DNA of 64,000 nt, taken from the NCBI RefSeq assembly GCF_964019765.1, contig NZ_OZ026461.1, forward strand, positions 434,001 through 498,000, read 5' to 3'. The first letter of the stretch is position 1; each line of letters opens with the position of its first letter. A model generated the notes under the pieces. The model ran no database searches and was not told the origin of the DNA. It saw nothing but the letters and a program-made list of their open reading frames with translations. Source of the DNA: Spiroplasma endosymbiont of Panorpa germanica (GTDB lineage: Bacteria; Bacillota_I; Bacilli_A; Mycoplasmatales; Mycoplasmataceae). Positions 2,371-59,676 of this stretch are shown in pieces. The position numbers were made by a program, and so were the translations under genes.

Positions 2371-2399
2371 TTGAATTACATTTTTAATTAAAATATAAT
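2371..2399 (+). promoter_or_regulatory. Strong sigma-A type promoter of fib
   Basis: TTGAAT (2371-2376), a 17-bp spacer and a perfect TATAAT (2394-2399). It lies about 75 bp upstream of the fib start and is followed by the leader hairpin. Confidence 0.75.
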
Positions 2400-2411
2400 C
2401 TAATTAGCATT

Positions 2412-2439
2412 TTATGCATTACTTTTAAGTGGTGCATAA
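2412..2439 (+). promoter_or_regulatory. Leader hairpin in the fib 5' UTR
   Basis: An 11-bp inverted repeat (2412-2422 with 2429-2439, two G-T wobbles) around the loop TTTTAA. It would form just downstream of the fib transcription start. It has no U-tract, so it is not a terminator. It may stabilise this mRNA or gate translation; the role is an inference. Confidence 0.55.
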
Positions 2440-2473
2440 GGAGCGATAAGAAAAAATGAGGTGCAATAAGATA

Positions 2474-4018
2474 ATGATAGGAATTATCTCAACAGCATAC
2501 TTCACATTGAAAGATCGTAAAGACATCAAAACTATTAAAAAGTACTGATGAAGAAATATGGTTATTCAAATCCTGAAGTATAGAGGAAAAACATTTATCA
2601 TAGCTACAATTGGTTATGGTAAAGCAAACGCCGCAATGGCAATTACTTACCTAATGGAAGAATACAAACAATTAGAAACTATTCTTAACGTAGACTTAGC
2701 TTTATCAACAAATGATAAATTTGATACAACAGATACTGTTATGTCAACTAAGTTTATTTACAGAGATGCAGATTTAACTGTTTTCAAAGATATTAAATAT
2801 GGACAAATCGTTCACGAACCCGAAGCTTTCCAGTTTGACACTGAATTAGTACAAACTGTTAAAAACTTCAAATTAGGAGTTTCAGATGGAATTATCGGTA
2901 CTGCTGATATGTTAATCTACAACTCAAAACAATTCAAAGAAATGGTTGACAAATACGGTCAAACAATCGATGTAATTGATACAGAAGCTGGAGCATTGGC
3001 TCAAGTTGCTAAAAAATCAACTGTTAACTTCTTAGCGATGAAAATTATGTACAACAACGCTCTAAGTCCTTGAGACAACGATCCACTACATAAATTCAAA
3101 ATCTATGAAACAACTAACACTTTGAAATTCTTGTTAATTAGATTACTTAACTTGTTATCATCAAAACTTGTTTTAGACTTTAGCAAAAACTCACTAGATG
3201 AATTAGACATTATTAATGACTTATTCGAAATTGAACACGATGCTTGAGTAAAACGTTTCAGCCCAGCTGCAACTCAATTACTTTCAGGTGCAGGACCATC
3301 ATTAATGGCTCTTGATGCAAAAGGTTTAAAACCAGAAGCAATCGACTTAGTTGAAGTTCTTAAACAAAAAGTTGAAGAAGAAGGACCAAGTAAAATTATT
3401 TTAGGGGAAGACGAGTGAAAACACGCTCCTAAAAAATGATTGAAAAAAATCATGTTCTTAGAAAACATGCATGTAAACGAAGATGAATTATTATGAAACC
3501 GTTCAGCAAAATACGATGTTAAAGCAGAAAAAATCTTCACAATTGAAGAAACTGCTAAAGCAATCGCAAAAACTATTACTGACCGTTCTCAAGACAAATC
3601 ATCATATGCATACGATGGAACTACTGCACAAAACAAATACCTTATGGTAACTTGTGACCCATTAGTTTCTTTCTACATTACAAATAATCAAACTCATGAA
3701 TTTGTTGAAGAAAGAAAATTTGGTAGTGAATTAGTTGTTAACGAATTTATGAAATATTTAAATAATGATTTGAAAGATGTTGAATCACCATTTACTAAAA
3801 TCGCAATTTTATTTAAAATTCCAGCAATCGGAAACAGAAAAATTCCAGTATTCATTGAAACTGCTAAAAAAGCTAACCAACCAATTAAATTCTTAGGTTA
3901 CTCAGAATCAAACCAACAAAAATACACAGTTGTAGATATTTCAAGAAATGACTACGACCCAATTAAAGTTGGATCATTCAAAGTAACAATTAGATTAAAA
4001 ACTGAATTAGCTAAATAA
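2474..4018 (+). CDS. fib: Spiroplasma fibril protein Fib (cytoskeletal ribbon subunit)
   Basis: A 514-residue protein recognised as Fib, the subunit of the flat internal ribbon that follows the shortest helical line of Spiroplasma cells and supports helicity and swimming, together with MreB paralogs. The N-terminal ~200 residues are a nucleosidase-like (MTAN/phosphorylase superfamily) domain, seen in GYGKANAAM and TEAGALAQVAKK; the C-terminal ~300 residues are the Fib-specific part, with the typical NDYDPIKVGSFKVTIRLK ending. The MTAN Glu is kept (residue 171), but the catalytic Asp of the SDxA motif is replaced by Asn (residue 194, YNNA), so activity is doubtful. Length agrees with known Fib (about 512). 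ATG 2474 follows GAGGTG by 10 bp; an in-frame ATG at 2456 behind AAGGAG is an alternative. It is monocistronic between its own promoter and a strong terminator. Confidence 0.95.
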
Positions 4019-4020
4019 CA

Positions 4021-4048
4021 AAAAAGAAACTTCGGTTTCTTTTTTTAT
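4021..4048 (+). terminator. Rho-independent terminator after fib
   Basis: Ten-bp stem AAAAAGAAAC/GTTTCTTTTT with a TTCG tetraloop, followed by a T-run, starting 2 bp after the fib stop. Confidence 0.9.
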
Positions 4049-59470: not shown

Positions 59471-59526
59471 TTTATTAATTAATAATGTAAAATTAGATTA
59501 GTTTAAGAGGAGTATTTTAAAATTAT

Positions 59527-59676
59527 TTTCAGAGAGTTAGTGGTCGGTGTGAACTAATAATTTATTTTAAAAGAAGGTTGCTTAATATTTTAAATAACAA
59601 ATAATTAAGTGGACTACTAGTAGTCAATTTGGATGGTACCGCGGAGAAATTCGTTCCTTTTAGGAGCGAATTTTTT
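59527..59676 (+). promoter_or_regulatory. T-box riboswitch controlling valS
   Basis: A complete T-box leader. Stem I begins with AGAGAG and has the GGTCGGTGTGAA signature (59551-59562). The T-box bulge sequence TGGTACCGCG is at 59634-59643, and the terminator stem is AAATTCGTTCC/GGAGCGAATTT (59647-59673) with a T-run. Uncharged tRNA-Val would pair with TGG and prevent termination. A GTT at 59577-59579 after GAAG is a candidate valine specifier codon, but I have not folded stem I. It is directly upstream of valS. Confidence 0.9.

Follow-up and report, generated by a model that had tools for sequence, protein, structure and literature searches.

The DNA analysed here, referred to as the window, is a stretch of 64,000 nucleotides occupying positions 434001 to 498000 of a single 1,054,068-bp contig. 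The fib region contains one long ORF, which under genetic code 4 runs from 2474 to 4018, or from 2456 if an upstream ATG is counted (Table 1). Its product was recognised in the initial annotation as Spiroplasma fibril protein (Fib), an identification borne out by full-length homologues in other Spiroplasma genomes. Alignments with other Fibs span residues 1-514 at 36-99% identity, reaching 98-99% with the sister genome (G198), 65-78% with the Fibs of genera g4, g5, g6, g8 and g9, and 37-43% with those of the two small genomes of g10. As in the Fibs of S. citri, S. melliferum and S. eriocheiris, an MTAN-like domain (residues 1-228) is joined to a Fib-specific C-terminus, with homology over the full length, and nothing about the protein of the window is unusual relative to these. 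That Fib polymerises into the ribbon filament is known from published work on other species (PMC9582952). The genome that carries fib also has the ribbon's MreB set, with six strong MreB genes (five scoring 400 to 427 bits and one scoring 303). The observation is a real and well-placed one, and it concerns a known protein.

On its upstream side fib is flanked by genes for two proteins, one with a VWA domain and one with a PCC domain, and on its downstream side by a terminator, a small protein with no Pfam match and a YitT-family protein; the adjacency of fib and the YitT gene recurs in many relatives. The small PCC-domain protein (PF03479; 1936-2298, + strand) lies directly upstream, and one is also found upstream of fib in the sampled genomes of g4, g6, g9 and g10. 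Elsewhere in the window, a T-box leader (Rfam RF00230, 98.8 bits) at 59490-59661 (+ strand) is the only Rfam match.

Table 1. Features of the fib locus in window coordinates, and of the second Fib-like genes of two relatives in the coordinates of their own loci
Feature	Position	Strand	Basis or remarks
-35 element TTGAAT	2371..2376	+	17 nt from the -10 element
-10 element TATAAT	2394..2399	+	perfect
Leader hairpin	2407..2444	+	14 uninterrupted pairs, 2410-2423 with 2428-2441, and 2 bp further out, 2407-2408 with 2443-2444
Ribosome-site-like AAGGAG	2438..2443	+	mostly within the 3' arm of the hairpin
In-frame upstream ATG	2456..2458	+	overlaps the ribosome site; probably not a real start; comparison of Fib genes
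Ribosome-binding site GAGGTG, for the 2474 start	2458..2463	+	comparison of Fib genes
fib, fibril protein	2474-4018	+	514 aa; seven TGA codons translated as Trp (code 4)
MTAN-like domain, residues 1-228	2474..3157	+	PF01048, PDB MTANs, predicted structure
Codon of Thr11, at the MTAN Glu12 position	2504..2506	+	alignment
Codon of Glu171, at the MTAN Glu174 position, kept	2984..2986	+	alignment
Codon of Asn194, at the MTAN Asp197 position	3053..3055	+	alignment
Fib-specific C-terminal region, residues 229-514	3158..4015	+	no confident fold match
Intrinsic terminator	4020..4047	+	11-bp hairpin, TTCG loop, T run; -8.5 kcal/mol; ends the transcript after fib
Second Fib-like gene (G193)	L047:5037-6281	-	matches both Fib domains
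Second Fib-like gene (G188)	L048:4371-5774	-	matches both Fib domains

The promoter of fib is good, not perfect. It had been described as perfect, which holds for the -10 element but not for the -35 element 17 nt away, which matches the consensus at only 4/6 positions (10/12 in total). It is the best of 15 promoter-like matches in 3.5 kb; shuffled sequence gives 15.1, so that such matches are otherwise no more frequent than chance in this AT-rich DNA. TATAAT is retained in nearly all leaders of g1, g4, g6 and g9, and the -35 element is TTGAAT in the three g1 genomes and mostly TTGATA or TTGCTA, at the same spacing, in g8; no -35 element is recognisable at 17-nt spacing in the g9 leaders. The g8 leaders inspected (L029, L034 and L040) mostly have TTGATA or TTGCTA followed after 17 nt by TACAAT, with a hairpin of different sequence immediately after it.

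Two starts, at 2456 and 2474, had been proposed for fib, and if both were real two forms of Fib would be made. In this genome the 2456 ATG is indeed in frame with an AAGGAG 12 nt upstream, and an in-frame ATG is found at the same place (-18) in all three g1 genomes. However, that AAGGAG sits inside the leader hairpin, and the ATG is itself part of ATGAGGTG, the string that contains the GAGGTG ribosome site. The comparison of about 40 related genes contradicts the proposal, since the ATG overlaps the ribosome site and its frame varies: an ATG of the ATGAGGTG type lies at -14, -15, -16 or -18 in relatives, in or out of frame, or is missing, so that outside the three g1 genomes both position and frame drift. 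In contrast, all the Fib genes listed from g1, g4, g6, g8 and g9 have GAGGTG (GAGGAG in three) ahead of the ATG that opens MIG..., a near-universal arrangement. We consider two functional starts very unlikely; these sequences are most simply read, by a wide margin, as having a single start, at 2474.

Between the promoter and the ribosome site is a hairpin that had been noted as 11 bp long; the hairpin is real, but it comprises 14 continuous base pairs, 4 of them G-U, and an outer 2 bp. Its calculated stability is -18.0 kcal/mol (z about -6), which makes it the strongest of the 78 TATAAT-linked sites in the window (the next being -10.3), and none of 3000 random stretches reaches its strength. 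The first paired base is at about +2 to +4 from the transcription start as predicted from the -10 box only, and in 25 leaders of g1, g4, g6 and g9 the hairpin similarly begins about 2-4 nt past the predicted start; g5 and g10, which have no clear -10 element, are left out of this comparison. Among the g1, g4, g6 and g9 hairpins 84% of cells are paired, and cells in which both partners have changed number 34, compared with 19.1 in shuffles (none of 500 reached 34) and 11-26 in slid-arm controls. These counts were made on a named structure; RNAalifold, run on the raw MAFFT alignment in which some rows are misaligned, gives no structure. The covariation, with the G-U pairs and the folding z, supports the conclusion that the hairpin is formed at the RNA level and, extending as it does across genera, that the leader is under selection.

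An inverted repeat directly behind a -10 box and with two-fold symmetry might also serve as an operator in DNA, bound by a dimeric repressor. Roughly one paired cell in four (62/264) is G-U, though, and such pairs would break a DNA palindrome; the sequence and length of the stem vary by species, and there is no further strong copy in 60 genomes. We reject this reading as having little chance of being correct and, given the share of G-U pairs, the hairpin appears to act as RNA.

The hairpin is not uniform among relatives. Relative to the g1, g4, g6 and g9 leaders, that of g8 (the citri-chrysopicola-mirum group) differs in sequence, most g8 genomes having an unrelated hairpin at the same place. 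The hairpin is weak (z above -2) in L008, L016, L028, L037 and L042, and the L031 leader has none. A covariance model searched against 60 genomes gives strong matches only at fib, and no Rfam 15 family matches the fib leader at gathering score. A wider leader family was considered and set aside, the weaker non-fib matches that were inspected lying mostly within coding sequence or lacking the arrangement. One mreB gene (L107, at about 1,044,750, with the start of its cluster at about 1,044,880) has a hairpin of -14.6 kcal/mol (z -3.6) just behind a TATAAT-like box, and hairpins at the 5' end may not be confined to fib. In the literature covered by our searches, the fib leader hairpin is an undescribed control element of what is the best-studied cytoskeletal gene of Spiroplasma, though an earlier description from S. 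citri is possible.

What such an element might do is suggested by the stem-loops known to stabilise mRNA at the 5' end, such as those of recA in Acinetobacter, vacA in Helicobacter and the ermC-type leaders of Bacillus (PMC7509114). Like these, the fib leader has a hairpin that is separate from the ribosome site and lies at or close to the 5' end, here a predicted one, of an mRNA encoding an abundant protein; it differs in that stabilisation is a proposed function and no Rfam family matches it. By this analogy the most likely role of the fib hairpin is to shield the mRNA 5' end and so stabilise the message, a role that best fits an architecture kept at the very 5' end, as predicted, while its sequence changes. 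Protection would be against 5'-dependent decay of the RNase J type, and two RNase J homologues are present; the shielded end would then give a long-lived message for the abundant Fib.

Translational control is a possible alternative, though in our judgement a doubtful one. The 3' arm carries a ribosome-site-like sequence in the hairpins of g1, g6 and g9, as AAGGAG in the window and as GAGGU or AAGGU in nearly all g9 genomes, and a hairpin that hid this site could alter ribosome loading on opening. Moreover, the 5' arm of the g9 hairpins, TAATCTTTAT, is almost invariant though the upper stem varies, from which it follows that sequence as well as pairing is constrained there. Nevertheless, in no genome does the hairpin include the true ribosome site, GAGGTG, and neither arm of the g8 hairpins resembles a ribosome site. 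End protection is the role that we carry forward.

The protein encoded behind this leader begins with a domain whose ancestry is known, descent of Fib from 5'-methylthioadenosine/S-adenosylhomocysteine (MTA/SAH) nucleosidase (MTAN) having already been published (PMC8432965). Pfam places PF01048 (phosphorylase superfamily) on residues 27-203 with an E value of 6.8e-20 (71.9 bits, the cut-off being 25.1), and each of the 24 PDB sequences that Fib matches is an MTA/SAH nucleosidase. In the AlphaFold model, which has a mean pLDDT of 78 with mostly higher values in residues 1-228, this segment superimposes on MTAN crystal structures with Z about 25 and an rmsd of 2.4. Both the PF01048 score and the predicted fold thus place a phosphorylase/MTAN fold in Fib, and the earlier description of the N-terminal domain as MTAN-like stands. 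The likeness to MTAN (MtnN) extends to the fold of the whole domain, the equivalent of Glu174 and the (H/R)DADLTxF...YGQ dimer loop, whereas Fib carries an extra 286-residue C-terminal extension. These 286 residues have no PDB sequence match, and Foldseek returned nothing below E 0.001 for their fold; in a second comparison the best match, an acetyl-CoA carboxylase central domain (Z 8.1), and several restriction-nuclease-like folds (Z 3-6) were too weak to be accepted. Sequence comparison against the PDB found no solved structure of Fib itself.

Residues were compared in an alignment of 23 sampled main-lineage Fibs, two g10 Fibs, six MTANs of the same order and PDB MTANs. Residue names follow E. 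coli numbering, and the roles given are those generally ascribed to these residues in the MTAN family. Asp197 is the catalytic Asp of E. coli MTAN, Glu12 positions the attacking water and Glu174 contacts the ribose; GSAGG is the glycine-rich ribose loop, and Phe151 stacks on the base. The initial annotation reported that Glu171 is kept and that Asn194 replaces the catalytic Asp, and, counting from 2474, the alignment places these residues at Glu174 and Asp197 respectively, as claimed. The position of Asp197 is Asn in all 23 main-lineage Fibs and Ser and Asn in the two g10 Fibs, while all six MTANs from the order retain Asp; at the Glu174 position, Glu is found in 25/25 Fibs. The loss of the Asp was therefore seen correctly, but it understates the change, since Glu12, the ribose loop, Met173, Ser196 and Phe151 have also gone. 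The Glu12 position is Thr in 22 and Ser in one of the main-lineage Fibs, and Glu in the two g10 Fibs and two paralogues; the N-termini of the MTANs are unevenly aligned, so that this column rests on two gap-free MTANs (L050 and L051) and on the known N-terminal motif of the family. Where MTANs have the ribose loop, the main-lineage Fibs have DLALS without variation (Gly75 to Asp, Ser76 to Leu and Gly78 to Leu), Phe151 is replaced by Leu, Met173 by Thr or Ser and Ser196 by Tyr, and Pro113, contributed by the partner subunit in MTAN, is Val or Ile.

The Asp-to-Asn change that is the natural state of Fib has also been made deliberately: the PDB has entries, by their titles, for D197N and D198N MTAN mutants whose active site holds MTA or SAH. 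Given these crystallised mutants and the replacement of Asp197, Glu12, the ribose loop, Phe151, Met173 and Ser196, loss of catalysis in Fib is very likely and would rest on more than one residue. A 2026 review likewise describes the fibril as without obvious enzymatic activity (PMC13310574), and we found no discussion of the lost catalytic residues in the literature searched. It is extremely unlikely that Fib has stayed active as a nucleosidase by way of other residues: it keeps the overall fold and the Glu174 equivalent, but every main-lineage Fib examined has substitutions at the Asp197 and Glu12 positions and in the ribose loop, and an MTAN gene dedicated to the task is present. This separate, intact gene is located at 584154-584780 (minus strand) of the same genome, which also has a second phosphorylase at 107940-108602, and its presence leaves Fib free of metabolic duty. 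With the catalytic positions replaced and a separate MTAN available, the Fib domain is very probably a pseudoenzyme reused structurally.

Conservation of the domain is extreme. In comparison with the sister genome G198, 227 of its 228 residues are identical, against 152/220 for the working MTAN, showing that evolution has been much slower in the dead Fib domain than in the live enzyme that the genome also encodes. The earlier proposal that an inactive nucleosidase domain has probably been reused as a building block is well supported by this conservation together with the fold, the fixed losses and the separate MTAN. Invariance is higher in residues 94-116 (YRDADLTVFKDIKYGQ), the segment that in MTAN dimers extends into the partner subunit, than in the remainder of the domain (19/23 compared with 112/205, p 0.007). 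Electron microscopy of Fib filaments saw no polarity (PMC9582952), as expected for two-fold subunits, and this observation together with the invariant 94-116 segment fits retention of an MTAN-type two-fold dimer surface.

Invariant positions are also more frequent in the former pocket (13/16, compared with 118/212 elsewhere in the domain, p 0.04), which a purely neglected pocket would not need; the buried position of the pocket may be the cause. This invariance keeps alive the alternative that Fib is non-catalytic but binds a ligand (MTA, SAH, adenine or another nucleotide) that alters subunit shape and filament helicity, despite the bulky residues that fill the pocket. Glu171 is among the invariant pocket positions, and MTAN with the Asp197Asn mutation binds substrate but does not cleave it (PDB titles). 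MTAN motions linked to ligands were proposed in a 2021 review as the basis of Fib motion (PMC8432965). We nonetheless regard ligand binding as improbable: small pocket residues have become bulky or charged (positions 75, 76, 78 and 196), the base-stacking Phe and the partner Pro have been replaced, and reconstituted cells can swim without Fib (PMC13310574, PMC9663586). A more specific form of the idea, in which Fib is a natural Asp-to-Asn trapped nucleosidase that binds a methionine-cycle nucleoside and thereby sets filament shape or handedness, is less probable still; if true, it would couple methyl metabolism to cell helicity.

The divergent Fibs of relatives bear on how the pseudoenzyme, which is the reading we favour, may have arisen. 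Since the most divergent Fibs keep the Glu12 equivalent and lack Asp197, the sequences suggest a stepwise loss of catalysis in which Asp197 went before Glu12, with rooting uncertain. The g10 Fibs (L045 in G200 and L046 in G201) are 43% and 37% identical to that of the window, in genomes of 0.7-0.8 Mb, and their MTAN domain is better kept (50-56%) than their C-terminus (26-34%). A second, very divergent Fib-like protein is encoded beside a normal Fib in two of the 60 family genomes (G188 and G193, both g9). These two are about 22-24% identical to Fib and 38% to each other; both have the Glu12 equivalent, and that of G193 has the Glu174 and Asp197 equivalents as well. In the tree they fall outside the other Fibs on a very long branch, with a grouping in g9 not rejected (p-AU 0.077). 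The fib gene is interrupted in L007 (G199) by an in-frame TAA near residue 336 and in L044 (G187) by a frameshift; helical strains with a probable fib stop have been described, namely S. sabaudiense Ar-1343 and S. helicoides (PMC7609405, a 2020 review).

Taken together, we favour, with a probability of roughly 0.8, an account in which Fib is a pseudoenzyme building block of the filament, expressed from a single transcription unit with one start and a 5'-protecting hairpin, while a separate MTAN serves metabolism. An MTA/SAH nucleosidase would have acquired a C-terminal extension, and its catalytic residues would have disappeared; the stable fold that remained, very probably together with the two-fold dimer surface, would have become the block of the Spiroplasma ribbon filament, the metabolic job being retained by the separate gene. 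Of this account, the homology, the predicted fold, the residue losses, the conservation and the hairpin covariation are computed results, and the lack of activity, the dimer and mRNA stabilisation by the hairpin are inferred from them. Initiation would be driven by the extended ribosome site at 2458, giving the one start at 2474.

Fib is one of few motility proteins with a known enzyme ancestor, and the residue-by-residue record of its losses suggests an order of events and makes the notion of a pseudoenzyme scaffold a testable one. The leader hairpin, for its part, may be of importance where fib is transferred to another host to reconstitute swimming.
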